From the NCBI GenBank assembly GCA_039028155.1, contig JBCCIS010000012.1:1-64000 (forward strand): a stretch of DNA of 64,000 nucleotides. Reading direction: 5' to 3'. Both the position numbers and the translations under genes were made by a program. Position 1 is the first letter of the stretch. Every line of letters begins with the position of its first letter. The notes under the pieces are model-generated. The model saw only the letters and a program-made list of their open reading frames with translations, was not told where the DNA came from and did no database searches. Origin of the DNA: Pseudomonadota bacterium (GTDB taxonomy: Bacteria > Pseudomonadota > Alphaproteobacteria > SP197). Of the stretch, positions 1,734 to 58,028 are shown piece by piece.

Positions 1734-2777
1734 ATGGTGCAGTTCAACGTCTTCCTGTCCTGTCATCACTTCAACGATACGCGCAGCCACCCCGAGCTCT
1801 ACCGCGACATGCTGGAGCAGGCGCGCCATGCCGAGGCACTTGGCTATGACGGGCTTTCGGTGCCCGAGCACCACTTCGTCAACGTGTTGATGAACCCCGA
1901 CCCCCTCATGCTCGCGGTCCAGGTCGCCAACGTAACGGAACGTTTGCCGATCGCGACGGCGGTCGTCGTGTTGCCGTTCCACGATATGCGCCGCTTCGCC
2001 GGTCAGGCCATGCTGGCCGACATCCTATCGGACGGGCGCATTGAGCTCGGTGTCGGGCGCGGCGCCTTCGCCTATGAGATGCAGCGCATGGGTGTCGATC
2101 CCGCCGAGACGCGCGACCGGTTCGACGAATCACTCGCGGTTCTCGAGGCGCTTCTGGAAGCTGAGGAGGTGTCCTGGGACGGCACTTACTACAAGTTCGA
2201 TTCGCTGACCGCCATGCCGCGCTCGCCGCACAAGCCGAACATCTGGATTGCCGCGTTGGGACCGGAAGCCATCTATCACACTGCGCGCAAGGGCTACGAC
2301 CTGCAGACGACACCGCTGCGCGGCGGGTTCCCGCTCGGCGTCAAGCAGATGGAGGCGTTCCACCGCGGTGCCGACGAGGCGCTGGCGGCGACGGGAAAGC
2401 GCCCGCGCATGTCGATGCTGCGCTCGGCCTATGTCGCGACCGACGAGGTGGACGCCCAGGCCAAGCGTGAGGTCGTTTACGAATACGGCCTGCGCTTCAC
2501 CAACGGTTTCGAGACGCCGGGTACGGTCAAGAACGGTTCGTTGGAGATCGTCGAGGTCGACTACGAAATGGAAGACGCGATGAAGCAGCTCATCGTCGGG
2601 ACCAAGGACGAAATTGTCGACAAGATCGGCGCCTATGTGGAACTCGGCATGGACGAGATCGCGCTCGACATGCATTTGGGGATCGCCAGCCACAAGGACG
2701 TCATGGAGTCCATGGAACGCTTCGCCGCAGACGTCATGCCGCAGTTCCGTGACGCCGAACTGGCGGTCGGCGCCTAG
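1734..2777 (+). CDS. LLM-class flavin-dependent oxidoreductase
   Basis: A 347-residue single-domain bacterial-luciferase-like protein. The N-terminal strand, the DGLSVPEHHF segment, the SDGRIELGVGRGA motif and the KPNIWIAALGPEAI segment before the flavin-binding region are typical of the LLM TIM-barrel family, whose members use reduced FMN or F420 to oxygenate or reduce small molecules. The start is an ATG with an AGAGGA ribosome site 7 bases upstream. It is followed 11 bp later by an alpha/beta hydrolase, so an oxidation-then-hydrolysis pair under the upstream TetR regulator is likely. No flavin reductase is next to it. The substrate is unknown. Confidence 0.88.
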   Translation: MVQFNVFLSCHHFNDTRSHPELYRDMLEQARHAEALGYDGLSVPEHHFVNVLMNPDPLMLAVQVANVTERLPIATAVVVLPFHDMRRFAGQAMLADILSDGRIELGVGRGAFAYEMQRMGVDPAETRDRFDESLAVLEALLEAEEVSWDGTYYKFDSLTAMPRSPHKPNIWIAALGPEAIYHTARKGYDLQTTPLRGGFPLGVKQMEAFHRGADEALAATGKRPRMSMLRSAYVATDEVDAQAKREVVYEYGLRFTNGFETPGTVKNGSLEIVEVDYEMEDAMKQLIVGTKDEIVDKIGAYVELGMDEIALDMHLGIASHKDVMESMERFAADVMPQFRDAELAVGA

Positions 2778-5253: not shown

Positions 5254-7272
5254 TCACGGCGATTTCGTGAGGACGAGATTGTGGTGGTCGTCAAGCTCAG
5301 CCGCCCAGCCATCGGGGATCGAGATGGTCGACGTCGTATCCTCCAGCAGATAGGGCCCGGCGAGGTTGTCGCCGGGTTTCATGGTGGCGCGCGATCCCGC
5401 TTGGCCCCCATGTTCGCCACCGTGCTCCCACATGGTCCAGGCCGTTGCCGGCGCGGGCGCTTCCTCGGTCTCTTCCGACAGCACCGGGATCTCGTCGAGC
5501 GGCGCGGTGACGCCGAGCCGGAAGGCGACGATCTCGATCGGGTTGCCGGCGTCACCGCCATGCATGAAGACGCGGTGGTGCTCAGCGGCGAAGAGCTGGC
5601 GCAACGTGTCGCCGGTCAAGGCGTCGAGCGCGGTGTGGTCGATCTCGACCGCGACCTCGAAGGCCTGGCCGACGAAACGCATGTCGGCGATGAACGTGAG
5701 ATCGGGGTCGTGGCCCAGCCCCATTAGCACGAACCGCTCGATCGCGCGCTTGCGCATCTCCTCGAACACCTCGGCGACAGCGGCGGGTGTCGCGTCGTCG
5801 ACCAGCATCTTGCGCGTCGTCGAATCGAACTGGCGGTAATCAGCGGCGATCAGGCCATAGGCCGACAGCACGCCCGCGTTGGGCGGCACGACCACGGTGC
5901 CGACGCCCAGATCCTCCGCGATGCGGCAGGCGTGCAACGGCCCGGCGCCACCGAAGGCGACCATGGCGTAGTCGCGCGGGTCCTTGCCGCGCTCGGTCGA
6001 GATGATCTGCATGGCGCGCACGATGTTGGCGTCGGCGACGCGGATGGCACTGTCGGCGATCTCCTGCAGCGACATGGAGAACCGTTCGGCGAGTGGTTCG
6101 AAGGCGCGTGCCGATGCCGCCCCGTCAATCGTCATGCGCCCGCCCAGGAAGGCGTCGGGCCTCAGCGTCTTGCGCAGCACATGGGCGTCGGTGATGGTCG
6201 GCTCGGTGCCGCCGCGCCCGTAACAGGCCGGCCCGGGATCGGCGCCGGCGCTTTGCGGGCCCGCGCGCAGCATGCCGCCGTCGTCGACCCAGATGATCGA
6301 ACCGCCGCCCGCGCCCACCGTGTTGATGTCGATGATCGGCGTCCTGATCGGCAGACCGTCCAGCGCGAATTCCGACGTCAGCTCCGGCTGGCCTTGGGTC
6401 ACCAGGCAAACATCAGTCGACGTACCACCCATGTCGAAGGTGATGAGATTATGGAAGCCGGAGCGTCCGACCTGGCGCACCGCGCCCATGACACCGGCCG
6501 CAGGCCCCGACAGCAGCGCGGTGATCGCGTTGCGCCGCATACCGTCGGCCGGCAGGCGCCCGCCGTTCGACTGCATGACCGAGAAGCGGCCGGTGAACCC
6601 GCCGCCGTTGAGCCGGTCTTCGAAGCGCTCGAGATAGCGGTTGATGACGGGCTGCACATAGGCCGACAGTGTCGTCGTGGAGGCGCGCTCGTATTCGCGG
6701 AACTCGCGGCTGACCGCCGACGAACAGGCGATCTGCATGTCCTGGCAATGGCGCGCGATGATCCCGGCAAGCTGTTCTTCATGTGCCGGGTTGGCGTAGG
6801 CGTTGACCAGGCAGATCGCGACGGCCTCATAGCCGCCTTCCTTCAGCTTCGGGATCAGCTCGTCGACCACGGCCTGTTCGTCGAGCGCCGCCTCGACGCT
6901 GCCGTCGGCCAACAGCCGTTCGGCGACTTCATAGCTGTCGCGCCGGCGCACGACCGGTTCCGGTTTCTGATACGTCAGGTCATAGACGCGCGAGCGGCTG
7001 TGGCGCTGCATGATCAGGATGTCGCGGAAGCCTTTGGTCGTGACGAACGCGACCTTGGCGCCCTTCCTCTCCAGCACCGCGTTGGTCGCGATGGTCGACC
7101 CGTGGGCGAGATCCTCGACCGCACCCAGATCGAGTTCGGCCGAAACCAGCGCGTTGAACGCGCCCTCGTCGGGCGCCGCCGGCACGCTCGGCACCTTGGT
7201 GACCCGTATCCCGTCCGGCCCGACCGCCACCAGATCGGTGAACGTTCCGCCCACCTCCACACCCACGCGCAT
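5254..7272 (-). CDS. hyuA: Hydantoinase A / 5-oxoprolinase subunit A
   Basis: A 672-residue protein with full HyuA architecture: N-terminal ATP-binding GGTFTD (residues 8-13), HGSTIATNA (57-65), the central FDMGGTSTDVCLV (about 279-291), GAGGGSI (320-326) and SAGADPGPACYG (341-352). HyuA enzymes belong to the ASKHA fold and activate the ring carbonyl of hydantoins or 5-oxoproline with ATP, acting with HyuB. The ATG at 7272 begins directly with MRVGVEVGG, so the start is secure. It is divergent from a pyroglutamyl peptidase gene at 7488 and followed by an MFS transporter. HyuB is 4.3 kb downstream on the same strand. Pyroglutamate as substrate is inferred from the neighbouring peptidases. Confidence 0.93.
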   Translation of the reverse strand: MRVGVEVGGTFTDLVAVGPDGIRVTKVPSVPAAPDEGAFNALVSAELDLGAVEDLAHGSTIATNAVLERKGAKVAFVTTKGFRDILIMQRHSRSRVYDLTYQKPEPVVRRRDSYEVAERLLADGSVEAALDEQAVVDELIPKLKEGGYEAVAICLVNAYANPAHEEQLAGIIARHCQDMQIACSSAVSREFREYERASTTTLSAYVQPVINRYLERFEDRLNGGGFTGRFSVMQSNGGRLPADGMRRNAITALLSGPAAGVMGAVRQVGRSGFHNLITFDMGGTSTDVCLVTQGQPELTSEFALDGLPIRTPIIDINTVGAGGGSIIWVDDGGMLRAGPQSAGADPGPACYGRGGTEPTITDAHVLRKTLRPDAFLGGRMTIDGAASARAFEPLAERFSMSLQEIADSAIRVADANIVRAMQIISTERGKDPRDYAMVAFGGAGPLHACRIAEDLGVGTVVVPPNAGVLSAYGLIAADYRQFDSTTRKMLVDDATPAAVAEVFEEMRKRAIERFVLMGLGHDPDLTFIADMRFVGQAFEVAVEIDHTALDALTGDTLRQLFAAEHHRVFMHGGDAGNPIEIVAFRLGVTAPLDEIPVLSEETEEAPAPATAWTMWEHGGEHGGQAGSRATMKPGDNLAGPYLLEDTTSTISIPDGWAAELDDHHNLVLTKSP

Positions 7273-7341: not shown

Positions 7342-7487
7342 GGCAGGGCATCAGCGATCGATCGATTGTTTGTCGACGTTTGGCGGGGGTGTTTCCACAT
7401 CCATGTCGTCCATCATGCCTTGCTCGCCGGTGTCCACCGACGCACAGTCTGCCATCCGTTACCATCGCTATGAGGAGTCGCGATCCG

Positions 7488-8156
7488 ATGACGACCATCC
7501 TGCTCACCGGTTTCGAGCCGTTCGGCACCACGCCCATCAACCCCGCCGAAAAGGTGGCGAAGTTCCTCGACGGCGATGAGATCGACGGCGCGCGTGTCGT
7601 CTCGCGCATCGTTCCCAGCGCTTTCTTCACCTGCATCGATGCCGTCTGTGCGGCGATCGAAGAAGTTCGCCCCGAGACCGTCGTCATGATGGGCGAATAT
7701 GGCGGGCGCGCCATGCTGACGGTCGAGCGGATTGCGCAGAACTTGAACGACGGTACCCGATACAAGCTGGCCGATAACAAGGGGCGCGCCACCCAGGGCG
7801 AGCCGACGGTGCCGGGCGGGCCGGCCGCCTACTACACGACGCTGCCGATGCGGGCGATGGTGCAGGCCATGCGCGACGCCGGCATCCCCTCGGATATCTC
7901 CGACGTCATGGGCACCTTCTGCTGCAACCACCTGATGTACGGCGTGATGCATCATATCACCGTCAACCGCCTGGACATCCGGGCTGGCTGGATTCATCTG
8001 CCGCACCTGCCGGAGGTCGCCGCGCTCGACGACCATCTTGGCTTGCCGAGCATGTCGGTGGAGACAGCCGCCGCCGGTGTGCGCGCGGGCCTCGCAGCGA
8101 TCGTCACCCATGCAGAGGATATCGACGAGCCCAGCCTTTCGCGCTGGCAGATCTAG
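7488..8156 (+). CDS. pcp: Pyroglutamyl peptidase I family (pcp1)
   Basis: A 222-residue protein of the usual Pcp length (peptidase family C15), which removes N-terminal pyroglutamate from peptides. All three catalytic residues are in place: Glu80 in LTVERIAQN, Cys146 in TFCCNHLMYG and His170 in GWIHLPHLPE. The N terminus MTTILLTGFEPFG is the family signature. I chose the ATG at 7488 because GAGGAG precedes it by about 10 bases and the homology starts here; an ATG at 7470 overlaps that ribosome site. It is divergent from hyuA (215 bp between the starts) and has a paralogue of equal length at 11916. The enzyme would release 5-oxoproline for HyuA/HyuB. Confidence 0.92.
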   Translation: MTTILLTGFEPFGTTPINPAEKVAKFLDGDEIDGARVVSRIVPSAFFTCIDAVCAAIEEVRPETVVMMGEYGGRAMLTVERIAQNLNDGTRYKLADNKGRATQGEPTVPGGPAAYYTTLPMRAMVQAMRDAGIPSDISDVMGTFCCNHLMYGVMHHITVNRLDIRAGWIHLPHLPEVAALDDHLGLPSMSVETAAAGVRAGLAAIVTHAEDIDEPSLSRWQI

Positions 8157-11769: not shown

Positions 11770-11915
11770 GCGTTCACCGTTCTCGTTGCGTCTCAGGCTA
11801 GCATCTCTGATCTTGCCGGTCTCCCGCAGCGCAAGGGGCGGACGTGCCTTGCCCCGCCATGCCGGCGGGCGCACAGTTGATCCTGACCACCACCGCCCCA
11901 GGGAGACCCGATCCG

Positions 11916-12584
11916 ATGGCCACTATCCTGCTCACCGGTTTTGAAGCGTTCGGCAACACACCTATCAATCCCGCCGAGCAGGTGGCGAATGCTTTGGACG
12001 GCGAGACCATTGACGGCGCACAGGTCGTCTCGCGCATCATTCCCAACACGTTCTTCACCTGCATCGATGTCGTCTGCGCCGCCATTGAAGAGCTTCGGCC
12101 CGAGACTGTTGTCATGATGGGCGAATACGGCGGGCGTTCGATGGTGACGGTGGAGCGTATCGCGCAGAACCTGAACGACTGCACCCGTTACCAACTGCGC
12201 GATAACGCCGGGCGCGCCATGCAGGGCGAGCTGACGGTGCCGGACGGGCCGGCTGCCTACTACGCGACGCTGCCGATCCGCGCGATGGTGAAGGCGATGC
12301 GCGAGGGCGGCATTCCCTCCGACATCTCCGACGTCACGGCCACCTTCTGCTGCAATCATCTGATGTACGGCATCCTGCATCAGATCGCGCTGAAGGGATG
12401 GGACATCCGGGCCGGTTGGATTCATCTGCCTCATCTGCCGGAAGTCGCGGCTCTCAACCACAATCTGGGTGCGCCCAGCATGTCAGTGGAGACGGCCGCT
12501 GCCGGCGTGCGCCTGGGCCTCGCGGCGATTGGCGCACACGCCGTGGATATCGACGAGCCGATCTTGTCGCGTCAGCAGATTTAG
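11916..12584 (+). CDS. pcp: Pyroglutamyl peptidase I family (pcp2)
   Basis: A 222-residue paralogue of the protein at 7488, with identical length, no gaps visible by eye and roughly three-quarters of positions identical. It keeps Glu80 (VTVERIAQN), Cys146 (TFCCNHLMYG) and His170 (GWIHLPHLPE). The ATG at 11916 follows a GGGAGA ribosome site. Two copies within 5 kb mean a local duplication later separated by the TPR pair and the HAD gene, or an insertion between copies. Upstream sequences of the two genes do not match, so they may be regulated differently. It converges on the M28-family gene. Confidence 0.92.
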   Translation: MATILLTGFEAFGNTPINPAEQVANALDGETIDGAQVVSRIIPNTFFTCIDVVCAAIEELRPETVVMMGEYGGRSMVTVERIAQNLNDCTRYQLRDNAGRAMQGELTVPDGPAAYYATLPIRAMVKAMREGGIPSDISDVTATFCCNHLMYGILHQIALKGWDIRAGWIHLPHLPEVAALNHNLGAPSMSVETAAAGVRLGLAAIGAHAVDIDEPILSRQQI

Positions 12585-22046: not shown

Positions 22047-23045
22047 TCAACCTCTGAACGGCGTCAGGCGTTTGTAGTGGAGCGCCTGATAGATCGAGAC
22101 CTCGATCTCGCCGACACCGGGCAACTGCCTGATGTCGTCATCGAGCACGCGGCGCAGTTCATCCGGTGAGACGCAGGCGACCTCTGCGAAGATGTCGGCG
22201 CGACCGGTGCAGATCGTGACATAGGTGATGTGCGGGAGGTCGGAGAGCGCGCCCGCGACATCGATCACCTTGTGGCTGGACGCAACACGAACGGCAACCC
22301 AGGCCATGGTCGTATAGGCAAAGCTGATCGGGTTGACGATCGCGATGACATTCATGACGCCGGCCGCCGTCATCTCGTTAACCCGGTTGCGCACCTGTGT
22401 CTCCGAAATGCCGAGCGTGTCGGCGATCGACTGAAGTGGCGCGCGTCCGTCATCGCTTAAGGCGCGCACGATCTGCCGGTCGGTTTCGTTTAGTTGGCGC
22501 GGCCTGACGCCAGCCTCCTGCGGGCTCTTGCGCCGTGCCGCGTCGAACCGCGCCAGCTGATAGTGCAGAGAGAGATAGGGAAAACTCTCGATCGCGCGGA
22601 TGCCGTCGATCGGTCCTATCTGCTTTTCAATAATGTCCTGGAGTGCTGCCATGTCGCGGCATATCACCTCGGCGAACAGCGTATAGCGTCCCGCCGCGAC
22701 GACCACATAATCGACCGCCTCGATGTCGACCAGCGATAGTGCGATGTCGGATGCCGGCACCGCAGGGTCGGTGGTCAGGCCGATCAGAGCCGCGGCGTTA
22801 TAGCCAAGCGCCACCGGGTTGGTAACAGCGGTGATCTGGATGACGCCACGGTCCAACAGGTCACGCACACGATGACGAACCGTGCGTTCGGTTATGCCGA
22901 TCTCGCGCGCGATGTTGGCGTAGGCGCGCCGGCCGTCCTCCTGCAAAAGCAAGACGATCGCGCGGTCTGTGTCGGAGAGATCGGACACGTGAGCCAGGAA
23001 CTGGCCGGCGCCGCCGCTGGGCAGATTGAGAGCAAGGTCAGCCAT
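22047..23045 (-). CDS. Double Lrp/AsnC regulator (two HTH plus two RAM domains)
   Basis: A 332-residue protein, twice the length of ordinary Lrp proteins. Residues about 20-165 and 185-330 each form a helix-turn-helix followed by a RAM/AsnC sensor domain: LSDTDRAIVLLLQEDGRRAY begins the first and LNETDRQIVRALSDDGRAPL the second, and each sensor half contains a GRADIFAEV/GRYTLFAEV segment. Both halves look intact. It lacks the landmarks of AhbA/AhbB siroheme decarboxylases, so a transcription regulator is favoured. It overlaps the upstream hydrolase gene by 8 bp on the same strand, so the two are cotranscribed, and both are divergent from the LLM cluster at 24062. Confidence 0.9.
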   Translation of the reverse strand: MADLALNLPSGGAGQFLAHVSDLSDTDRAIVLLLQEDGRRAYANIAREIGITERTVRHRVRDLLDRGVIQITAVTNPVALGYNAAALIGLTTDPAVPASDIALSLVDIEAVDYVVVAAGRYTLFAEVICRDMAALQDIIEKQIGPIDGIRAIESFPYLSLHYQLARFDAARRKSPQEAGVRPRQLNETDRQIVRALSDDGRAPLQSIADTLGISETQVRNRVNEMTAAGVMNVIAIVNPISFAYTTMAWVAVRVASSHKVIDVAGALSDLPHITYVTICTGRADIFAEVACVSPDELRRVLDDDIRQLPGVGEIEVSIYQALHYKRLTPFRG

Positions 23046-23901
23046 CGCGAATCAGCGCGATCGAGCGGCGGAAGAACTCGCTGTCGGCCTCCGCCAATCG
23101 GTTCAGTTCGTCGAAGTGATCGGCATCGGGCACGCTGTAACGATCGATGCGGCGGCCGTCGGTCCGATACTTCTCGCAGTAGTCGTCGGATTGGCGATGA
23201 AACTCCGGCGTCTCGGCGCCGCCGACCACGACAAGCTGCGGCGCGTCGGTGGCCGGCGCCATGAACATCGGGCTTTCCCTGATCGCTTCCTCGACATCCA
23301 TCCGTGGGCCTTCGTTGATCGAGGTGTGGACCAGGGGCTCCAGTTCGAACAGGGCCGAGATGGGCACGCCCGCTTTCACCAGATCAGCGGGCAGTCCGCT
23401 ATCGTGCGCCGGCCAATCGGTCGCCATCATCATGGCCGTCAGATGACCGCCGGCCGAGTGGCCCATGACGTAGAGCTGGTTGCCGTCATAGCCATGGTCG
23501 CCGGCTGAGGCGTGAAGCGAGATCACCGCGCGGCGGATCTGCGGCGCTATCTCGCCGAGTCGGACTGACGGGCAGAGATTGTAGTTCAGCACAGCGACCG
23601 TGACCCCGTTCTCGAGAAACGGCTCGGCGACGAAGCTGTACATCCCCTTGTCGCCGCGCTGCCAATAGCCGCCATGGATGTAGATCAGCAGGGCGCCGGT
23701 TGGTTCGCGGGCCGGAAACAGGTCGAACGTCTCGCGCTCGCCCGGGCCATAGGCGATATCGCATTGGGCGCCGGAAGCCTCGCGAAAGGCGGCACAGCGC
23801 TCCAGCCAACCGGCGACGACGTCGTCGAAATCGGGCCGGCGGGCCCGCAGATTGTATTGGGCTTCCAGCTCGTCGCCCGTCATGCCTCGGTACAGCGCCA
23901 T
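23038..23901 (-). CDS. Alpha/beta hydrolase, kynurenine-formamidase/carboxylesterase type
   Basis: A 287-residue alpha/beta hydrolase. The oxyanion motif is HGGYW (76-80), the nucleophile elbow GHSAGGH with Ser149, and the catalytic His is in DADHFDEL near residue 258. HGGYWQ plus GHSAGGH is the pattern of the bacterial formamidase/esterase group related to kynurenine formamidase. A GGGGGA ribosome site precedes ATG 23901. It is the first gene of a two-gene unit with the double Lrp regulator. The neighbours show no tryptophan pathway, so the exact substrate stays open. Confidence 0.88.
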   Translation of the reverse strand: MALYRGMTGDELEAQYNLRARRPDFDDVVAGWLERCAAFREASGAQCDIAYGPGERETFDLFPAREPTGALLIYIHGGYWQRGDKGMYSFVAEPFLENGVTVAVLNYNLCPSVRLGEIAPQIRRAVISLHASAGDHGYDGNQLYVMGHSAGGHLTAMMMATDWPAHDSGLPADLVKAGVPISALFELEPLVHTSINEGPRMDVEEAIRESPMFMAPATDAPQLVVVGGAETPEFHRQSDDYCEKYRTDGRRIDRYSVPDADHFDELNRLAEADSEFFRRSIALIRDG

Positions 23902-23981
23902 GCTTCCCCCGCATCATTGTCGTCGCAACGGCACATTGTCGTTCACGACCGCCTTGGTTACAGTTTCTGCGAAATCGGTCA

Positions 23982-24011
23982 TTGACTCCAGTAAATTATG
24001 CGAAATACGAT
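23982..24011 (+). promoter_or_regulatory. Candidate promoter of the LLM/flavin-reductase cluster
   Basis: TTGACT (23982-23987) and TACGAT (24006-24011) with an 18-base spacer form a fair sigma-70-type promoter 50 bases before the ATG at 24062. The region is markedly A+T-rich compared with its surroundings. A strong spacer match is absent, so this is a candidate only. Confidence 0.4.
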
Positions 24012-24061
24012 CATCCAAGTGCTGCACGGCACGAAATTCGGTTGGCGTGAGGGAATAGGCG

Positions 24062-25126
24062 ATGAAAGTCGGATTGTTGCAGGAAGGCGAGTTGATGCCC
24101 GGCGTTGATTGCGCCCAGCGTTATGAGGAAATGATCGAGGAGGTCGCCATCGCCGACCGCAACGGCTTTTCCTGTTGGGGCACGTCGGAGCAGCATTTCA
24201 GCCCGCCGCGGTTCGCCGTTTCGGCGCCCGAGGTGCTCTACGCCGCCGTCGCGCGCCATACCGAGCAGATCAAACTCAGGATCATGTGCGCAGTGCTTCT
24301 GCAGTGGAACCATCCGATCCTGGTCGCCGAGCGGCTGGCGACTCTGGACATCGTTTCGAAGGGCCGCGCCGAACTGGCGACCGCGCGTTCGAACAACCTG
24401 ACGACGCTGGAAGCTTTCGGCGTCGATCCCAAGGAGACGCGGACCCAATGGGCCGATTCGATTGAGGTCATCGTCAAGGCGCTCTCCGACGACGTCCTGG
24501 AGCATGACGGACCGGTCTGGAAAATTCCGCCGCGCGAGATCGTGCCGCACTGCATTCAGAAACCGCATCCGCCGCTCTCGGTGGCCGCATCAAGCGTCGA
24601 CAGCCACGTCAACGCCGGCGAGCGCGGCATCGGCGCGCTGTGTTTCGAGAGTTACTTCGGTTTCGATTATCTGCAGCAGTGTATCGAAGGCTACCGCCAA
24701 GGCCTCGCCAAGGGCACCAGCATGGGCCCCCGGCGCACCGAACACATGGGGCTTTATGTCGCGACAGCGTTTTGCGCTGAGACCCGCGAGGAAGCCGTCA
24801 GGATCGCGCGCGACGTGGCGCTGGGTTACTACGAATTCATCGTCAGCATCTACGCGCCGCTTGGCAAAGCGGGATCCTACGAATACCTCAACGAGTACAT
24901 GCAGGCTGCCGTCGAAAACCTCGGCAACATCGACTTTCTGTTGACCGAAACCCCGTCGGTCATGATCGGTACACCCGAGGACTTTGTCGCGCGGCTTAAG
25001 GATCTGGAATCGCGCGGTATCGACGAGGTCCTGCTCAGGGTCGACGGCGTGCCTCATGAAGACATCAAGAAATCGTTCGAGCTGATGGGCGCGGAGGTCA
25101 TCCCGCGGGTTAACGGACATGCTTGA
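24062..25126 (+). CDS. LLM-class flavin-dependent monooxygenase
   Basis: A 354-residue luciferase-like protein, unlike the one at 1734 in most of its sequence. Landmarks are NGFSCWGTSEQHFSPPRFAV, MCAVLLQWNHPILVAERLAT (a long segment lacking the usual Gly-rich form), SKGRAELATARSNNLTTLEA and the late EDFVARLKDLESRGIDEVLL. A GAGGGA ribosome site precedes ATG 24062. Four further genes follow on the strand, including an FMN reductase that could supply its reduced flavin, which marks this as a two-component monooxygenase system. The oxidised compound is unknown. Confidence 0.88.
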   Translation: MKVGLLQEGELMPGVDCAQRYEEMIEEVAIADRNGFSCWGTSEQHFSPPRFAVSAPEVLYAAVARHTEQIKLRIMCAVLLQWNHPILVAERLATLDIVSKGRAELATARSNNLTTLEAFGVDPKETRTQWADSIEVIVKALSDDVLEHDGPVWKIPPREIVPHCIQKPHPPLSVAASSVDSHVNAGERGIGALCFESYFGFDYLQQCIEGYRQGLAKGTSMGPRRTEHMGLYVATAFCAETREEAVRIARDVALGYYEFIVSIYAPLGKAGSYEYLNEYMQAAVENLGNIDFLLTETPSVMIGTPEDFVARLKDLESRGIDEVLLRVDGVPHEDIKKSFELMGAEVIPRVNGHA

Positions 25127-25258
25127 TAAGCTGGTGTGGGTCGCACCCCTCGTACGGAACCCACTGGCTCTTGTTGCTGTCGTTGACCAGAGGCGCCAGC
25201 CAGCGGCTTATCGTTGCCGCCAGAGATACCCTTCGCCCGATCATATGGAGCTGTTGTC

Positions 25259-25567
25259 ATGAAACGCGTTCTTGTCTGTTACGGCCAACCCGACGACGCT
25301 GCCGCGTTCGACCGGCACTACAGTGACACGCACATGCCGCTGGTCGCCAAGATGCCGCACCTCGTCTCGTTCGAGGCCAGCAGCGGACCCGTCGTGTCAA
25401 GCGAACCCTCCGTCGACTATCATCTCATCGCGATTCTGTCCTACGCCAACCAGGAGGACCTGGACGCGTCGCTCGCTTCGCCAGAGGGCCAGGCGGCGGT
25501 GGACGATCTCGCCAACTTTGCGACCGGCGGCGTCACCATCCTGACCGTCGACATGGCGGCACCCTGA
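25259..25567 (+). CDS. EthD-domain small protein
   Basis: A 102-residue protein with the EthD/ABM-like ferredoxin fold: an N-terminal strand (MKRVLVCYGQPDD), the FDRHYSDTHMPL helix with its conserved Tyr and two His, and a C-terminal strand. EthD-type proteins occur beside monooxygenases and are needed for ether or polyketide oxidation in some systems. The start at ATG 25259 has GGAG 9 bases upstream. It is the second gene of the LLM cluster, with a 132-bp gap before it. Confidence 0.82.
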   Translation: MKRVLVCYGQPDDAAAFDRHYSDTHMPLVAKMPHLVSFEASSGPVVSSEPSVDYHLIAILSYANQEDLDASLASPEGQAAVDDLANFATGGVTILTVDMAAP

Positions 25568-25643
25568 TCGGTCTTCGATCCGGGGGTCGCTCAAGATGTC
25601 GTCGATAGCGCGCCTGCCAGATACCGGTGGGAAGGAGACCTTG

Positions 25644-26078
25644 ATGCAAGAGCGGAGCATGAGCGAACGGCTAGGGCTGGCCTGGGACAGGGCGTGGAAC
25701 AACGGGGATGTGGACGCGCTCGATGAGGTCTTCGCGCCGGAATACGTGCGGACGAGCCTGTTTGACAAGCGAACCCTTGATCGCACCGGCATGAAATCAG
25801 CGATCTCGACGGTACGCGAGTCGTTCCCCGATATGACGACGACCATCGAGCGTATCGTGGAAACAGACGACGAGCTTGCCGTTCTCTGGAGCAGCGTCGG
25901 CACGCATCTGGGCAGGTTCAGAGATGTTCCCCCTACGGGAAAACCCATTGAGACTTCCGGATCGTCGTTCTTTCGCAAGCGAGACGGGCTGATCGTCGAA
26001 GAGATCGAGACGTGGGACTCCAGAGACATACTCTCGACCCTTGGTATCCACTCGTTGCGTAGCACGCGCGACGCTTAG
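25644..26078 (+). CDS. SnoaL-like polyketide cyclase / NTF2-fold protein
   Basis: A 144-residue NTF2-like protein of the SnoaL type: an N-terminal helix (AWDRAWNNGDVDALDEVFAP), a Tyr/His-less pocket strand and a final ETWDSRDILSTLGI helix-strand, as in ester cyclases. AAGGAGA lies 5-6 bases before ATG 25644; a longer frame to 25596 lacks homology. It overlaps nothing and is followed 8 bp later by the flavin reductase, so the two are almost certainly cotranscribed. Function could be cyclase, isomerase or simple binding protein. Confidence 0.83.
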   Translation: MQERSMSERLGLAWDRAWNNGDVDALDEVFAPEYVRTSLFDKRTLDRTGMKSAISTVRESFPDMTTTIERIVETDDELAVLWSSVGTHLGRFRDVPPTGKPIETSGSSFFRKRDGLIVEEIETWDSRDILSTLGIHSLRSTRDA

Positions 26079-26086
26079 GACGCGGC

Positions 26087-26581
26087 ATGACGACCTCTGA
26101 ACTAACAATCGATCAGGTCAAGAGCTTTCACCACAAGTTCGTCACCGGCGTCACCGTTGTCACGACGTCGGACGGGTCGGAGCCTCGTGGACTGGTGGTC
26201 AATGCGTTCTCCAGTTTGTCGCTCGATCCGCCGATGATCATCGTTTGCGTTCAGAAGACCTCGTCAAGCTACGACTCCCTCTTCGCGCGCGACCATCTCG
26301 CCGTTAACGTCCTGGCAGCCGATCAGGTGGACGTCGCCAAACGCTTCGCGAGCAAGGCTCCGGATAAGTTCGCGGCCGTGCCATGGACGTCGGGACCATT
26401 CGGCTCTCCGTTGCTTGAAGGGGTGGCGGCCTGGCTGGAAGCAGAGCTCACCGAACGCATCCAGGCTTCGACGCACACCATGTTCATCGCGCGCCTTGTG
26501 GCCGTGGGGCACTTTGAGCGGCCGCCCTTACTCTACGCCGCCGGACAGTTTTTTGACGGCGGCAAGCTGCACCAGGTTTGA
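26087..26581 (+). CDS. Flavin reductase domain protein (HpaC type)
   Basis: A 164-residue FMN-binding split-barrel protein with the HpaC landmarks: FVTGVTVVTT near the N terminus, NAFSSLSLDPPMIIVCVQ, then SSYDSLFARDHLAVNVLA and the late AAGQFFDGG. These enzymes use NAD(P)H to produce reduced flavin for a partner monooxygenase. It lies four genes after the LLM monooxygenase and 8 bp after the SnoaL-like gene, so it is the likely electron supplier of that system. ATG 26087 is the evident start. Confidence 0.9.
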   Translation: MTTSELTIDQVKSFHHKFVTGVTVVTTSDGSEPRGLVVNAFSSLSLDPPMIIVCVQKTSSSYDSLFARDHLAVNVLAADQVDVAKRFASKAPDKFAAVPWTSGPFGSPLLEGVAAWLEAELTERIQASTHTMFIARLVAVGHFERPPLLYAAGQFFDGGKLHQV

Positions 26582-26684
26582 GGAGCAGTGGCGGTCCAGC
26601 TCGATTGGGCGCTGGAATGGGTTGAACGTGGGGTCACCGCAGGCGCAAGGTATGGTCCGTGGTGACGGCGTCAGGAGCTGCGTC

Positions 26685-27764
26685 ATGCCGATATCCTTTT
26701 CAGCCATACCCGCGTGCGCTGAGACGCAGCCTTTCGCGCAATGCCATGGCGTCGATCTCTCACAGGGGCTAAGCGCACAGGACATCGAGACCATCAGAGA
26801 TGGTCTGCTGAAGCACGGTGTCTTGGTGTTTCGCGATCAAGGCGGGATGACGCCGCGCGACGAAGTCGCCTTCAACCAGGCTTTCGGCTGGCACGATCCC
26901 AATGGCGCCTATCTCTTCGGCTTCGGCGCGCCGACGACTGAGCATCGTGTCAGCGGCGGCGCGCAGCTTCCCGAATGGCCGGAGGTCTCGGTGCTGGGCA
27001 ACGTCAAACTCGACGACTATCACGGCATCCGCAACACGCAGCTAAAGCCCGTTCTGGGATTCACCAATGCCGCCTGGCATGCCGACGGTCTGCACGACAT
27101 GTTCGATGGCTTGCCGGAGATGACCACGATGTACAATCCGGTGGGCTGGCAAACCCAAGGCGGCGGCGCGACCTACTTCACCTCCGGCGTGCGCGCGGTC
27201 GAACGTATGGACCCGGATCTCGTAGCCGAACTCTCTCGATGCTCTGTGGCCTATGCCCGCTGCCCCAACGACGACAAACCGGACGAGGCGCGGCGCGTCG
27301 TGCCAAGCGCATCCTGTATGGTGGAGGAAGGGACGCGCCGGGTCGGTTTTGCGGCCGACTCCGATGATATGGCAGCCGGCCTGCGCGATTTCGATCTTCT
27401 GCCCGAGCATGCAGACGATGGTGGACGGCATCGCTGCATTCGCGTTCACCCGGATACGGGTGAGGCGTCGCTCTACATCACGCCCGGCCGATCGGTACAC
27501 CTGGTGGACATCGAATCCGGCGCCATGCGTCACGGCGTCGACGAGACCATCGATCTTCTCGCACGGGCATTGAGGCCGAGCGCCGGACCGGAGATCCGCT
27601 ACGAGCATCAATGGCAGGAAGGCGACTTTGTCGCCTGGATCAATACGCTGGTGTTGCACAGTGCGTCCGATCCCTCAGAGATCGACGGTCCACGGTTGAT
27701 GCACCGCGTCAGGCTCTCAACACCCAAGACCCGCTGGGTCGACGGTCAGTACCACAGTCTCTAG
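26685..27764 (+). CDS. TauD/TfdA-family 2-oxoglutarate oxygenase
   Basis: A 359-residue Fe(II)/2-oxoglutarate enzyme. The metal motif is HADG in AAWHADGLHDMF, the distal His is in VLHSASDP and the Arg that binds 2-oxoglutarate is in LMHRVRLSTP. The N-terminal segment has LLKHGVLVFRDQ as in TauD. AGGAG lies 7 bases before ATG 26685; the longer open frame from 26415 overlaps the flavin reductase gene and has no homology. TauD-like enzymes cleave taurine or aryloxy-alkanoate ethers. Ending the LLM run suggests a second oxidation step. Confidence 0.85.
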   Translation: MPISFSAIPACAETQPFAQCHGVDLSQGLSAQDIETIRDGLLKHGVLVFRDQGGMTPRDEVAFNQAFGWHDPNGAYLFGFGAPTTEHRVSGGAQLPEWPEVSVLGNVKLDDYHGIRNTQLKPVLGFTNAAWHADGLHDMFDGLPEMTTMYNPVGWQTQGGGATYFTSGVRAVERMDPDLVAELSRCSVAYARCPNDDKPDEARRVVPSASCMVEEGTRRVGFAADSDDMAAGLRDFDLLPEHADDGGRHRCIRVHPDTGEASLYITPGRSVHLVDIESGAMRHGVDETIDLLARALRPSAGPEIRYEHQWQEGDFVAWINTLVLHSASDPSEIDGPRLMHRVRLSTPKTRWVDGQYHSL

Positions 27765-27785: not shown

Positions 27786-30152
27786 TTAGCCCGTCGCTTG
27801 CTTGATTGCCCGCCACACCTTGTCCGGTGTCGCCGGCATGTCGATCGCATAGATGCCGAGCGGGGCCAACGCATCGATCACAGCGTTCATGACGGCAGCC
27901 GGCGCGGCGATCGTGCCGACCTCGCCGGCGCCTTTGGCGCCGAGCGCGTTGGTCGCGGTCATGGTCGGCTGTAGGTCGCTGGTAAGGTCCGGCAAACGGT
28001 CGGCGCGGGGCAGGCCGTAGTCCATGGGCGATCCGGTCAGCAACTGGCCGGTATCGGGATCGTAGATGACCTCTTCCCACAAGGCTTGACCGATGCCCTG
28101 GACAGCGCCGCCCTGCACCTGGCCTTCGACCACCATTGGGTTGATCGCCTGACCGACATCGTCGACGGCGATGTAACGCTCGAGCCGCACCAGGCCGGTC
28201 GCCGCATCGATCTCGACTTCGGCGACATGGACGCCCATAGGCCAGGTGAAATCCTTGGGGTCGTAGAAACACGCTTCTTCGAGGCCCGGCTCCAGCGTGT
28301 CGTGGGGAAAGTCAGTGGGCACATAGGCCTGTGTGGCGACGTCATTAAACGCGACCTCGCGGTCGGTGCCGGCAATGCGGAACGCGCCGTCGCATAGCTC
28401 GATGTCGGCGGCCGAGGCTTCCAGCATGTGCGCGGCGATCTGCTTGGCCTTGTCCAGAACCCGGTCCGTCGCGTTCAGCACCGCCGGCCCGGCGATGACG
28501 GCGGAGCGGGAAAAGAAGGAACCGAGCCCTTGCTGAACGCGATCGGTATCACCGAACACAACCTCGACCTGATTGAGATCCAGGCCCAGCCGTTCGGCGA
28601 CGATCTGCGCAAACACCGTTTCGTGGCTTTGGCCGTGGCTATGGGTACCCAGAAACAGCGTCGCCGATCCGGTCGGGTGCAGGCGCAGCCGCGCGCTCTC
28701 CCAACTGCCGGTATCGATGCCCGCGCGTTCGTCGCGTGCCGACGAGCAGTTGCCGCACGATGCCGCATAGGCACTGAGACCGAAGCCGCGATAGCGGTTT
28801 GCGGCGCGTGACGCCGCGCGCCGCGCCTCGAGCTCGTCGTGATTGGCGAGTTTGAGGGCGTGGTTGAGCAGCGCCGGCGGGTCGCCGCTATCAAAATTTG
28901 AGCCGACCGCCGTCACATAGGGCAGGTCGGCGGGGGCCACCATGTTCTGGCGCCGCAGGTCGGCGGGGTCGCGGGCGAGTTCGCGCGCTGCCTGATCGAC
29001 CAGGCGTTCGGTGACATAGACCGCTTCCGACCGCCCGGCGCCTCGATAGGCGTCAATCGGTACCGTGTGGGTGAAGGTCGTGTGGATCTCGGCGTGGACT
29101 GCCTCGAAGCGATAGGGACCGGGCAGCACATAGGTCGAATAGACCGTCGGCACGGCGGACGCATGCTGCGACAGGTAAGCGCCCATATTCGCCGCCGTCT
29201 CGACACGCATGGCCAGAAACCGACCGGTCTCGTCGAGTGCCAGTTCGGCGTGGGTCAGATGGTCGCGGCCGTGATGATCGGCCAGAAAGGCCTCGCTCCG
29301 ATCGCTGGTCCAGCGCACGGTTCTGCCCAGGCGTCGGGCCGCCCAAAGGACGGTGACCTCGTCGGGATAGATGTAGCACTTCATGCCGAAGCCGCCGCCG
29401 ACATCGGGCGCGATGACGCGCAGATCGGTCTCCGGAATGCCGAAGACATCAGTGGCCAGCATACGGCGGAGCTCATGGGGCAGTTGCGTCGCGCAAGTCA
29501 AAAGCAGACGGCCGTCCGCCTCGACGGAACCGATGGCGATGCGTGGCTCGACCGGGGTCGGTGCAAGCCGTGTGTTCACCAGGTCGAGTTTCGTGATGTG
29601 AGCGGCCCGGGCGAACAGGTCGTCGGTGGCGGCTTTGTCGCCGTTCGTCCAACGCAGGCCGATGTTGTCGGGCGCATCCGGCCAGACCGCATGTGCGCCG
29701 GGCGCGCGGGCGGCCGCCAGGTTCGCGATCGCCGGGCGTTCGTCGAACTCGACGTCGACCCGCTCAGCCGCGTCCTTGGCCTGATCGATGGTCTCGGCGA
29801 TGACGACCGCGTAGGGTTCGCCGACAAAACGCACGACATCGTCGGCCAGCGCCACATGGGGCGGCACGAACATGGCCGAGCCGTCGGCGTCATGCAGCGT
29901 CCAGTTGATCGGGATCGCACGCAAGCCGTCGGCCGCCATATCAGCGCCGGTCAGAACGGCCACCACGCCCGGTGCGGCAAGCGCGTCGTCGATCGCATTG
30001 ATCTGGACGCCGGCATGGGCGTAAGGCGAGCGCAGAAAAGCCGCGTGCAGTTGACCGGCTACCGGGCGGTCGCCGGTATAGCGCCCGCGCCCGGTGATGA
30101 AACGCCGGTCCTCCTTGCGCCGGACCGCCGCACCGATGCCCTGATTGATCAC
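27786..30152 (-). CDS. Molybdopterin-binding hydroxylase subunit, CoxL form II type
   Basis: A 788-residue large subunit of the xanthine dehydrogenase/CO dehydrogenase family. Motifs include GGGFGMK (252-258), AYRGAGR (368-374) and the late GAKGAGEVG carrying the catalytic Glu. AYRGAGR marks form II (not CO-oxidising form I, which has a Cys-containing loop). The start is a GTG at 30152 reading MINQGIGAAVRRKEDRRFIT. The usual FAD and 2Fe-2S partner genes are not adjacent on either side, so it is an orphan here. It is divergent from a D-aminoacylase gene. Confidence 0.9.
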   Translation of the reverse strand: MINQGIGAAVRRKEDRRFITGRGRYTGDRPVAGQLHAAFLRSPYAHAGVQINAIDDALAAPGVVAVLTGADMAADGLRAIPINWTLHDADGSAMFVPPHVALADDVVRFVGEPYAVVIAETIDQAKDAAERVDVEFDERPAIANLAAARAPGAHAVWPDAPDNIGLRWTNGDKAATDDLFARAAHITKLDLVNTRLAPTPVEPRIAIGSVEADGRLLLTCATQLPHELRRMLATDVFGIPETDLRVIAPDVGGGFGMKCYIYPDEVTVLWAARRLGRTVRWTSDRSEAFLADHHGRDHLTHAELALDETGRFLAMRVETAANMGAYLSQHASAVPTVYSTYVLPGPYRFEAVHAEIHTTFTHTVPIDAYRGAGRSEAVYVTERLVDQAARELARDPADLRRQNMVAPADLPYVTAVGSNFDSGDPPALLNHALKLANHDELEARRAASRAANRYRGFGLSAYAASCGNCSSARDERAGIDTGSWESARLRLHPTGSATLFLGTHSHGQSHETVFAQIVAERLGLDLNQVEVVFGDTDRVQQGLGSFFSRSAVIAGPAVLNATDRVLDKAKQIAAHMLEASAADIELCDGAFRIAGTDREVAFNDVATQAYVPTDFPHDTLEPGLEEACFYDPKDFTWPMGVHVAEVEIDAATGLVRLERYIAVDDVGQAINPMVVEGQVQGGAVQGIGQALWEEVIYDPDTGQLLTGSPMDYGLPRADRLPDLTSDLQPTMTATNALGAKGAGEVGTIAAPAAVMNAVIDALAPLGIYAIDMPATPDKVWRAIKQATG

Positions 30153-30261: not shown

Positions 30262-31704
30262 ATGGCGGAGCACGGCGTTGTCATCAAAGGCGGCTGGGTC
30301 ATCGATGGCACGGGCCGCAATCGCTACCGAGCCGACGTGGCGATCGACGACGACCGCATCGCGGCAATCGGTGACCTCGCCGACGCGGCGGCCGAAACCG
30401 TGATCGATGCGACGGACCGTATCGTCGCGCCCGGTTTCATCGACGTCCACACCCATGATGACCGCATGCTGCGCGATGCCAGCGACATGACACCCAAGAT
30501 CAGCCAGGGCGTGACGACCGTGGTGGCCGGCAATTGCGGTATCAGCCTGGCGCCGTTCGTCGCGACCGAGCGGCCGATGGAGCCGCTCGATCTGGTCGGC
30601 GATTTCAGCGCGTTTCGCTATCCGACCTTCGCCGCGTTTGTCGACGATCTAACGCGCCAGCAACCATCGACCAACGCCGCGCTTCTGGTCGGCCACGGCA
30701 CACTGCGCGTGGCGAACATGGACGACACACAACGCCCGGCGACCGACGACGAGGTAGAGGTGATGCGCTCCAAGGTCGGCGAGGCCATGGACTCCGGCGC
30801 GGTCGGTCTGTCCACCGGGCTTGAGTATCCGCCGGCCCGCATGAGTGAGACACCGGAGATCATTCGCCTCGCCGAAGTGGCCGGCGAGAAGGGCGGCGTT
30901 TACGCGACCCATATGCGCAGCTATGCGGCGGATGCGCGGAGCTCCATGGACGAGGCGATGCAGATCGGCCGCGAGGCCAAGCTCCCGGTGATCGTCTCCC
31001 ATTTCCACTGCCACACCGACGACAATCCCGGCATCTGTTCCGAAGCGCTTTCCTGGTACGAGACCGCGCGCGAACACCAGGACGTCGTGGTCGATGCTTA
31101 CCCTTATGAGGCCAGCAGCACGTCAATCCTGCCGGAGTTCGTGATGAAACGAACGAAGGCGCTGGTGACCTGGTCAAAGCCGCATCCTGAAATGAACGGC
31201 AAGTATCTGCACGAGATCGCGGACGAGTGGGACACCGACGTGATCGATGCGGCGAAGCGTCTGGCACCTGGCGGCGCGATCTATTTCGGGCGTGACGAGG
31301 AAAACGTCAAACGGCTGATGACCCATCAGGGCGTCATCATCGGCTCGGACGGTATTCCAATGAACCCCCATCCCCATCCGCGACTGTGGGGCACGTTCCC
31401 CCGCGTGCTCGGGCATTACGCCCGTGACCTCGACCTGATGACCATGGAAGACGCGATCCATCGCATGAGCGGGCTCTCCGCGGAACGGTTCGGCCTGACC
31501 GATCGCGGGTCTGTCGCCGTTGGTGCCTACGCAGACCTTGTCGCCTTTAATCCTGCGACGATCGCCGATACCGCGACGTTCATGGAACCCGAACAGCCGG
31601 CGGCAGGCATTGACCACGTGTTCGTCAACGGTGTCTCGGTCTGGCAGGCCGGCCGCCACACCGGCGCGGGACCAGGCCGGATCGTCGGCCAACGTCAAGT
31701 CTAG
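30262..31704 (+). CDS. N-acyl-D-amino-acid deacylase family amidohydrolase
   Basis: A 480-residue amidohydrolase-superfamily enzyme. The metal-binding HTH is at residues 63-65 (GFIDVHTHDD), followed by GVTTVVAGNCGIS, ATHMRSY, SHFHCHTDDN and a late SDGIPMNPHPHPRLWG. This is the layout of D-aminoacylases and related D-hydantoinase-like enzymes. An AGGAGAG ribosome site precedes ATG 30262. It is divergent from the CoxL-type gene (109 bp) and followed 4 bp later by a GNAT gene. Substrate: probably an N-acyl-D-amino acid. Confidence 0.92.
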   Translation: MAEHGVVIKGGWVIDGTGRNRYRADVAIDDDRIAAIGDLADAAAETVIDATDRIVAPGFIDVHTHDDRMLRDASDMTPKISQGVTTVVAGNCGISLAPFVATERPMEPLDLVGDFSAFRYPTFAAFVDDLTRQQPSTNAALLVGHGTLRVANMDDTQRPATDDEVEVMRSKVGEAMDSGAVGLSTGLEYPPARMSETPEIIRLAEVAGEKGGVYATHMRSYAADARSSMDEAMQIGREAKLPVIVSHFHCHTDDNPGICSEALSWYETAREHQDVVVDAYPYEASSTSILPEFVMKRTKALVTWSKPHPEMNGKYLHEIADEWDTDVIDAAKRLAPGGAIYFGRDEENVKRLMTHQGVIIGSDGIPMNPHPHPRLWGTFPRVLGHYARDLDLMTMEDAIHRMSGLSAERFGLTDRGSVAVGAYADLVAFNPATIADTATFMEPEQPAAGIDHVFVNGVSVWQAGRHTGAGPGRIVGQRQV

Positions 31705-56489: not shown

Positions 56490-58028
56490 CTAGTCGCGCG
56501 CGCCGCCTTCTTCCTTGCGCCGGGCGATGAAGGTGTCGAGTTCCTCGCGCACGGCCGGGTCCAACGGCGGCTCCTCGTATTCGGCCAAAAGCTGTTTCCA
56601 AATCTGGTGGGCGCGTGTTTGGGCATCCGGCGAGCCTGCCTCGCGCCAGCTCTCATAGTTGCGCCAGTCCGACAGAATGGGGTTGTAGAACGCGGTCTCG
56701 TAGCGGTCCAGCGTGTGCTGGGTGCCGAAGAAATGGCCACCAGGTCCAACATCGCGCATCGCCTCGATGCCGATGGCATCGTCTGAGATGTCGATCGGGT
56801 TCAGCATCTCGGCCATACCCTGGATCATCTCCGCATCCAGGATCAGTTTTTCGAAGCTCGCCACCAAGCCGCCCTCGAGCCAGCCCGCGCCCTGATAGAG
56901 CAGGTTCGCCTGGCCGGTGACCGCCGCCCATAAGGACATCTCCGATTCGTATGCCGCCTGCGCGTCGACCGTGTTGGACGCATTGACGTTCGACGTGCGG
57001 TAGGGAATGCCGTAACGGCGCGCCAGCTGACAGCCGGCCAAGACCGCTTTGGCGTATTCCGGCGTGCCGAAGGCGGGCGCGCCCGACTTCATGTCGACAT
57101 TCGATGTAAATCCGCCATAGACCACTGGCGTGCCCGGACGAATGCACTGGGCGATCGCGATGACGCCGAGCGCCTCGGCATTTTGTTGGGCGAGCGCGCC
57201 GGCGATGGTCGCTGGACTCATGGCGCCGGCAAGCGTGAACGGCGTGATGGTGACCGGCTGGCCGCATCGGACATAGGCCGTCATGCCTTCGGCCATTGGG
57301 ATATCGAACCTGAGTGGCGAGTTGGTATTGATAATGGTAATCGCGGCCGGTTTCTCCGCCAGCGTCTCGCGATCGCATTGCAGCGCGATGCAGGTCGCCT
57401 CGATGGCGTCTTCGGCGCGTTCGGCGCCCAGCGCATAACCCTGCCACGTCTTGTCGGTCAGTGTGATCATGGCGCGGTACATGTCGAGATGGCGCGTCGA
57501 CGCCGGCAGATCCTGTGGCTCGACGGCGCCGCCGCCGTCCTGATGCACGATGTTCAGGCTCTGCAGGACGCGGGTGAAGTTGCACATGTCCTCGAAGTTG
57601 CCTATGCGCCGGCCGCCTTCTAGATCGCTGACATAGGGCGGTCCGCCGACGCCGGTGACGACCATGCGGTTGCCGCCAAGCGTCACGTTGTGCGCGGGGT
57701 TACGCGCGTGCAGGGTGAACTCCGACGGCGCCAGAGCAGCCTTCTCTTCGATCATGTTCCGGTCAAACTTGACGAGCTCGCCGTCGACGTCTGCACCTTC
57801 GCGTTTGAGCATGTCGCGCGTCGGTGCGTGCAGCACCTCCATGCCGATCGACTCAAGGATCGTTAGCGATGCCTGGTGCAGGCGTTCGACCTGTTCGTCG
57901 TGCAGGATATCGAATGGACGATAGGGATTGACGATCTCGCGCCATGGCAGCTGGTGGATCGTGCCGGCCTTGCGTTCGGTTCCGCCTGTGCCGCGTCGCC
58001 CGCGTCGCCCTGCTCTTTCGCGTGCCAT
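56490..58028 (-). CDS. mttB: MttB-family methyltransferase, non-pyrrolysine
   Basis: A 512-residue TIM-barrel protein of the trimethylamine methyltransferase superfamily. Landmarks: HDEQVERLHQASLTILESIG, the PRDMLKREGAD-like THAPTRDMLKREGADVDG region, VTITPFTLAGAMSPATIAGA and VYGGFTSNVDMKSGAPAFGT, ending YNPILSDWRNYESWREAGSP. The frame has no internal amber codon, so it is a Pyl-free member; such enzymes demethylate glycine betaine or other quaternary amines in the cases studied. The corrinoid protein and second methyltransferase are absent nearby. Last gene of a four-gene minus-strand run. Confidence 0.88.
   Translation of the reverse strand: MARERAGRRGRRGTGGTERKAGTIHQLPWREIVNPYRPFDILHDEQVERLHQASLTILESIGMEVLHAPTRDMLKREGADVDGELVKFDRNMIEEKAALAPSEFTLHARNPAHNVTLGGNRMVVTGVGGPPYVSDLEGGRRIGNFEDMCNFTRVLQSLNIVHQDGGGAVEPQDLPASTRHLDMYRAMITLTDKTWQGYALGAERAEDAIEATCIALQCDRETLAEKPAAITIINTNSPLRFDIPMAEGMTAYVRCGQPVTITPFTLAGAMSPATIAGALAQQNAEALGVIAIAQCIRPGTPVVYGGFTSNVDMKSGAPAFGTPEYAKAVLAGCQLARRYGIPYRTSNVNASNTVDAQAAYESEMSLWAAVTGQANLLYQGAGWLEGGLVASFEKLILDAEMIQGMAEMLNPIDISDDAIGIEAMRDVGPGGHFFGTQHTLDRYETAFYNPILSDWRNYESWREAGSPDAQTRAHQIWKQLLAEYEEPPLDPAVREELDTFIARRKEEGGARD

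Follow-up and report, generated by a model that had tools for sequence, protein, structure and literature searches.

Gene Content of the Locus

A luciferase-like, flavin mononucleotide (FMN)-dependent monooxygenase (LLM) heads a row of five genes in the DNA analyzed here (the window), which comprises the first 64,000 nucleotides of contig JBCCIS010000012.1 from a Pseudomonadota bacterium (assembly GCA_039028155.1). All five are intact plus-strand open reading frames between positions 24062 and 27764, each scoring above its own Pfam cut-off (Table 1), and the EthD-family protein also exceeded the cut-off of NCBIfam model TIGR02118. Facing the LLM on the minus strand are a hydrolase gene and a regulator gene, and it is this divergent arrangement and the reaction that the LLM may catalyze that are considered below.

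Based on upstream motifs, the corrected start of the EthD gene is most likely the ATG at 25259, with GGAG upstream, and that of the TauD gene most likely the ATG at 26685, with AGGAG upstream, not the TTG at 26415, which falls within the reductase gene. The intergenic gaps, in the order LLM, EthD, SnoaL, reductase and TauD, are 132, 28, 8, and 103 bp, so that tight packing is limited to EthD, SnoaL and the reductase. The TauD protein retains the HxD...H set (H132, D134, and H325). Gene order was identical in G001, a sister genome of the same genus, with 89–96% identity, indicating that the arrangement is real and no accident of assembly.

The LLM and the last gene share their Pfam families with SsuD and TauD of sulfonate assimilation, but the LLM reached only 36 bits with the alkanesulfonate monooxygenase model SsuD (NCBIfam TIGR03565, cut-off 518), the TauD protein 54.5 bits with the taurine dioxygenase model (NCBIfam PRK09553, cut-off 313), and the LLM did not group with SsuD phylogenetically. 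These scores and the tree rule out a sulfonate route, and neither sulfonates nor ethers, both named among the substrates to screen in the original prediction made from this sequence, found support.

The divergent hydrolase, with motifs HGGYW and GHSAGG, was matched by phmmer to kynurenine formamidase (4e11, 3e-17) and to a putative esterase (2pbl, 1.8e-37). Its gene overlaps that of the regulator by 8 bp. In the regulator, Pfam detected HTH_AsnC and AsnC_trans_reg as two stretches each, identifying it as a member of the Lrp/AsnC family.

Table 1. Features of the LLM locus and its flanks in the window.
Feature	Position	Strand	Remarks
Tandem Lrp/AsnC regulator	22047..23045	-	two HTH and two ligand-binding domains in a single chain
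Alpha/beta hydrolase like kynurenine formamidase, divergent from LLM	23038..23901	-	phmmer; proposed N-formyl amide hydrolase
Putative operator, three direct CGAAAT repeats	23970..24037	+	at 23970, 24001, 24032, exactly 31 bp apart
Sigma-70-type promoter TTGACT-18-TACGAT	23982..24011	+	overlaps second CGAAAT repeat
Luciferase-like FMN monooxygenase (LLM), core enzyme	24062..25126	+	354 aa; Pfam Bac_luciferase 1.3e-39
EthD-family small protein, conserved accessory	25259..25567	+	102 aa from ATG 25259; Pfam EthD 2.2e-11
SnoaL-like NTF2-fold protein	25596..26078	+	Pfam SnoaL 4.3e-25
Flavin reductase, proposed supplier of reduced FMN (FMNH2)	26087..26581	+	164 aa; Pfam Flavin_Reduct 2.6e-41
TauD/TfdA-family Fe(II)/2-oxoglutarate oxygenase	26685..27764	+	359 aa; Pfam TauD 5.4e-29
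Molybdenum hydroxylase large subunit (CoxL/XDH family)	27786..30152	-	MoCoBD_1/2, Ald_Xan_dh_C
Amidohydro_3 amidohydrolase, divergent partner of molybdenum enzyme	30262..31704	+	Pfam Amidohydro_3

Phylogeny of the Monooxygenase and Known Systems

Maximum likelihood analysis, with an outgroup restricted to 12 LLMs (SsuD, RutA and ten others), placed the window LLM in a subfamily of 25 sequences (support 100/99). This subfamily sits with PyrA and TpdA in a clade (97/95) that every bootstrap replicate (100%) separated from the outgroup LLMs; RutA and SsuD lay apart from it on a very long branch. End to end, the window LLM is 36% identical to the PyrA-type LLM of plasmid p2MP and 37% to TpdA, and the residues specific to the clade include S42, R109, N111, and Y273. 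Among more distant clade members, an Aminobacter LLM lies beside genes for N-formylglutamate deformylase and peptide deformylase, and a Pseudonocardia LLM beside an amidase and RidA. The AlphaFold model of the window LLM (pLDDT 87, pTM 0.88) shows the luciferase-family barrel, and Foldseek placed it nearest, in the PDB, to RslO1 and further LLMs with identities of about 20%, general matches to the luciferase family; as a model, it confirms that fold and no more. Another luciferase-like monooxygenase gene of the window (1734-2777, plus strand), followed by a gene like those of alpha/beta hydrolases, grouped among the outgroup LLMs.

The closest counterparts are two systems of the same clade. 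On p2MP of Arthrobacter sp. 68b, the LLM locus contains a flavin reductase, an amidohydrolase and succinate-semialdehyde dehydrogenases, a cluster that we take to be the pyridine pathway (PyrA/PyrE) of Casaite et al. (2020). The window system likewise has a separate flavin reductase, and homologous modules of other genera also have an Amidohydro_3 enzyme and an aldehyde dehydrogenase. It differs in its additional tandem Lrp regulator and EthD protein and, in the window's family, in having a formamidase-like hydrolase and a molybdenum enzyme in the place of the amidohydrolase and aldehyde dehydrogenase. The Rhodococcus TpdA locus, with tpdB, an amidase and a LuxR-type regulator as neighbors, has the layout of the tpdABC-tpdR locus for tetramethylpyrazine degradation (PMC6099782). 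It shares with the window an NTF2-fold (SnoaL/DUF4440) neighbor, and its operon includes an amide hydrolase for which the window has a putative counterpart, although the regulator is LuxR-type instead of Lrp and the amidase is of a different family.

Two further systems invite comparison. The Rut pyrimidine pathway (RutA/RutF) also combines an LLM, a flavin reductase, hydrolases and a permease for an N-heterocycle, but RutA falls far outside the clade of the window LLM, and a pyrimidine route was ruled out by the tree. TgnAB, an LLM with its flavin reductase, resembles the proposed system in opening an N-methylpyridinium ring, a likeness at the level of the described reaction. This TgnA/TgnB oxygenase of Acinetobacter baylyi acts on the aromatic N-methylpyridinium ring of trigonelline (PMC8269262).

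Distribution of the LLM Subfamily

Members of the subfamily are 59–81% identical to the window LLM. Scanning of named genomes and plasmids returned orthologues of 59–75% identity from Methyloligella, Ancylobacter, Hansschlegelia, Hyphomicrobium, Pseudochrobactrum, Pseudohalocynthiibacter, Pseudonocardia and two actinobacterial metagenome-assembled genomes, as well as from plasmids pYKAM101 and pLDW-10 (Arthrobacter crystallopoietes). The subfamily is thus carried by methylotrophic Alphaproteobacteria, Actinomycetota and plasmids. It is patchy, since a sample of 386 genomes of the class contained no LLM of at least 60% identity beyond the window's own family. Its patchy distribution and the plasmid copies suggest horizontal spread.

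Neighbor clustering revealed a recurring set made up of the LLM, flavin reductase, EthD, a 560-residue Amidohydro_3 enzyme, an aldehyde dehydrogenase and the tandem Lrp, orthologues of the window's regulator being found in 22 other LLM loci. Pairwise distances correlated with those of the LLM for the regulator (0.87) and the amidohydrolase (0.90), both values being uncorrected for the species tree. The subfamily amidohydrolase is 28% identical over its full length to that of p2MP (3e-43). Many loci also carry a transporter, which is of the betaine/choline ABC type in four (with hits above cut-off to the models for proV and the choline ABC permease) and in others an NCS1 heterocycle permease, with CytX as the nearest. 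Genes for RibBA-type riboflavin synthesis or riboflavin kinase were seen near four homologous modules (L031, L066, L071, and L033), where they presumably meet the flavin demand.

These partners bear on another possible chemistry, in which the LLM would oxidize a carbonyl substrate (as a type II Baeyer–Villiger enzyme) or a polyketide-like one, and the hydrolase would split the resulting ester as an esterase or lactonase. The near structures found by Foldseek do include a type II Baeyer–Villiger monooxygenase and secondary-metabolite LLMs, NCBIfam families of the MupA and MsnO8 types are among the best LLM scores, albeit below cut-off, and the hydrolase is most like esterases. We consider this chemistry unlikely, however, because the fold matches are all family-wide, the tree sets the LLM apart from the outgroups used, and the partners in other genera are an amidohydrolase and transporters for N-heterocycles or betaines, not genes for lactone or acyl-CoA metabolism.

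Conservation Within the Family

In a sample of 16 genomes of the window's family, with orthologues of the hydrolase called at 60% identity or more, LLM and hydrolase were both present in 12 and both absent from four, with no mixed case. Outside the genus, LLM orthologues of 77–81% identity were found in nine genomes, in addition to a frame-broken copy in G009. The hydrolase adjoined the LLM divergently at every site spanned by a contig (the contig of G014 stops within the hydrolase), and the tandem regulator came after the hydrolase in most genomes, although it was not detected in the stretch from G007. Judged from this gene order, the true conserved unit is the divergent pair of regulator and hydrolase facing the LLM, two partners that the original prediction had left out. 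In G009, the LLM (L044:9030-10092) appears as two overlapping, frame-broken segments, and the hydrolase and molybdenum-enzyme genes are likewise broken, through either sequencing error or decay.

Of the other four plus-strand genes, EthD has homologues (36–61% identity) close to the LLM in most loci. The window reductase, only about 30–35% identical to the reductases behind the LLM in relatives, looks like a non-orthologous replacement. SnoaL had no match in the 11 family genomes outside the genus. Orthologues of TauD at about 70% identity occurred in G009, G012, G013 and G015, always on contigs other than that of the LLM and, in G012, in a genome with no LLM orthologue; in three of the four, a gene like those of solute-binding proteins precedes TauD. 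From their distribution, TauD is facultative and SnoaL confined to the genus, and both look like recent additions beside the conserved unit.

The original prediction had taken the five genes for a complete oxidation module, and had named shuffling of the neighbors in relatives as the evidence that would speak against it. Such a loss of linkage is what was seen for TauD and SnoaL outside the genus and, with the replaced reductase, the five genes were not inherited as a unit. They could still form one new pathway, acting in sequence on a single substrate, with TauD adding an N-demethylation or a hydroxylation. The order shared with the sister genome would agree with such a pathway, as would the SnoaL/DUF4440-fold protein, annotated as the beta subunit of the oxygenase, that comes after TpdA, and the TauD-family genes (of a sequence cluster differing from the window TauD) and Rieske genes near the LLM in three other family genomes. 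The scattered TauD orthologues and the missing SnoaL make this improbable, as does the ribosome-binding site that TauD has of its own after its gap; the window SnoaL, moreover, gave no BLAST signal with TpdB, and was rejected as its orthologue.

It is very improbable that the locus is a loose neighborhood of unrelated oxidoreductases in which only the regulator, hydrolase and LLM are functionally joined, possibly for detoxification instead of catabolism: flavin reductase, EthD, the molybdenum enzyme and Amidohydro_3 are indeed facultative beside the LLM in this family, but in different phyla the LLM is repeatedly joined by EthD, a reductase and the regulator, whose divergence correlates with its own (again uncorrected for the species tree), and transporters accompany the module elsewhere.

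Promoter and Putative Operator

The divergent intergenic region upstream of the LLM is 160 bp long. The score of the promoter taken alone is near chance (two found and 1.2 expected in shuffled sequences). Its TTGAC is invariant across eight aligned family intergenic regions, and this conservation, the CGAAAT repeats that bracket the promoter and the Pfam matches bear out the earlier view of five plus-strand genes behind a candidate promoter. The triple CGAAAT array was found once, with no mismatches, where 0.05 would be expected even when up to three mismatches are allowed. Between the three sites, the eight family genomes align without gaps, the third site being degenerate in some of them.

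An extended form, CGAAWTNCGG, had 14 occurrences in the 5.2 kb of sequence preceding LLM genes as opposed to 23 in 543 kb of sequence from these loci, a 64-fold enrichment in related loci that are not independent. It was seen upstream of the LLM in Hyphomicrobium, Methyloligella and Hansschlegelia, in Hyphomicrobium again with the 31-bp spacing and with additional copies near transporter genes, and was not seen upstream of actinobacterial LLMs. For Lrp-type proteins, clusters of binding sites are known that are spaced by two or three helical turns and so share a face of the DNA (PMC2995911). Since the -10 element coincides in part with the second repeat, and the third is situated in the leader, the data are most simply read as repression that a ligand relieves.

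Proposed Pathway

We favor, with moderate confidence, a reading of these data in which the locus encodes an Lrp-controlled, two-component FMN monooxygenase system that would open an N-heteroaromatic ring. Of the earlier module idea, the part that stands is a two-component LLM oxygenase for an N-heterocycle, to which both the phylogeny and the neighborhoods of homologues point. As the oxygenase half, the LLM would be supplied with FMNH2 by the flavin reductase and would cleave the ring, yielding an enamine aldehyde or ketone with an N-formyl (or N-acyl) group, a product suggested by the tree, the amidohydrolase alignment and the deformylase and amidase neighbors of clade members. In most genera, the aldehyde dehydrogenase and the PyrC-like amidohydrolase could complete the route. 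In this family, the formamidase-like hydrolase probably substitutes as a candidate N-formyl hydrolase, perhaps together with Amidohydro_3 and the molybdenum enzyme, the latter of which could oxidize the aldehyde. The tandem Lrp, arrayed on the three CGAAAT sites along one face of the DNA and covering the -10 element and the leader, would repress the LLM and possibly its own hydrolase–regulator operon too, until a pathway ligand releases it. EthD would be a conserved accessory protein, and SnoaL and TauD later additions at the level of the genus.

Our best guess for the substrate is trigonelline, homarine or a similar N-methylpyridinium betaine, since transporters of the betaine/choline ABC or NCS1 heterocycle type are found in homologous modules, whose hosts include methylotrophs. 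Such hosts could use the methylamine and formate released from the betaine.

Several observations weigh against this interpretation. Identities of 36–37% to characterized enzymes are insufficient to fix the substrate or even the reaction. LLMs of the wider clade in Paraburkholderia and Pseudonocardia adjoin acyl-CoA genes, so that other substrates are possible within the clade. Among solved structures, the esterases 2pbl and 9n8r outscore formamidase 4e11 as relatives of the hydrolase. In the window, the immediate neighbors of the LLM include no betaine-type transporter, nor any aldehyde dehydrogenase or PyrC-type gene, the latter two being missing beside the LLM across the family; the best match to the subfamily amidohydrolase in G000 was 31% identical and on a different contig. 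The window Amidohydro_3 was rejected as a PyrC orthologue, as only a 40-residue N-terminal stretch aligned.

Downstream and Other Window Genes

The molybdenum hydroxylase, a possible aldehyde or heterocycle oxidase from its domains, followed the LLM, together with Amidohydro_3, in eight of the 12 LLM-bearing family genomes; in the remaining four it lay elsewhere. Alongside it, no gene for a small or an FAD subunit was called, and the same lone gene recurs in relatives. In G008, G010 and G011, the molybdenum enzyme and Amidohydro_3 are kept together away from the LLM, which weakens the case for them as obligate partners; they are therefore regarded as companions, not proven partners. Near the LLM of these three genomes (L037, L041, and L043), the molybdenum enzyme is replaced by two TauD-type genes, a Rieske oxygenase and a solute-binding protein, a gene content that suggests a different or extended pathway.

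Elsewhere, the window encodes a full-length protein like the trimethylamine methyltransferases of the MTTB family (56490-58028, minus strand; Pfam 1.5e-197), a sign of quaternary-amine metabolism. Two pyroglutamyl-peptidase genes (7380-8156 and 11844-12584, plus strand) and a hydantoinase/oxoprolinase A gene (5254-7272, minus strand) lie within 8 kb.

Significance

To our knowledge, few enzymes are known to use FMNH2 and oxygen for the opening of N-heteroaromatic rings. The system described here is related to known LLM systems that cleave N-heterocycles, and has an identifiable regulator and operator and a putative substrate. Tentatively, and with considerable doubt, we propose that it represents an undescribed, horizontally spread pathway for the opening of an N-heterocycle, probably an N-methylpyridinium betaine, with a tandem-domain Lrp repressor acting at a 31-bp-spaced CGAAWT array and, in this family, a formamidase-type hydrolase and a molybdenum oxidase in place of the amidohydrolase and aldehyde dehydrogenase. 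The operator motif would allow the regulon to be traced in other genomes. The subfamily is coherent, extends from methylotrophs to Actinomycetota and includes copies on plasmids that are conjugative or mobilizable; with the regulator and operator that its members share, it offers a new pathway, open to testing, for N-heterocycles of natural or polluting origin.

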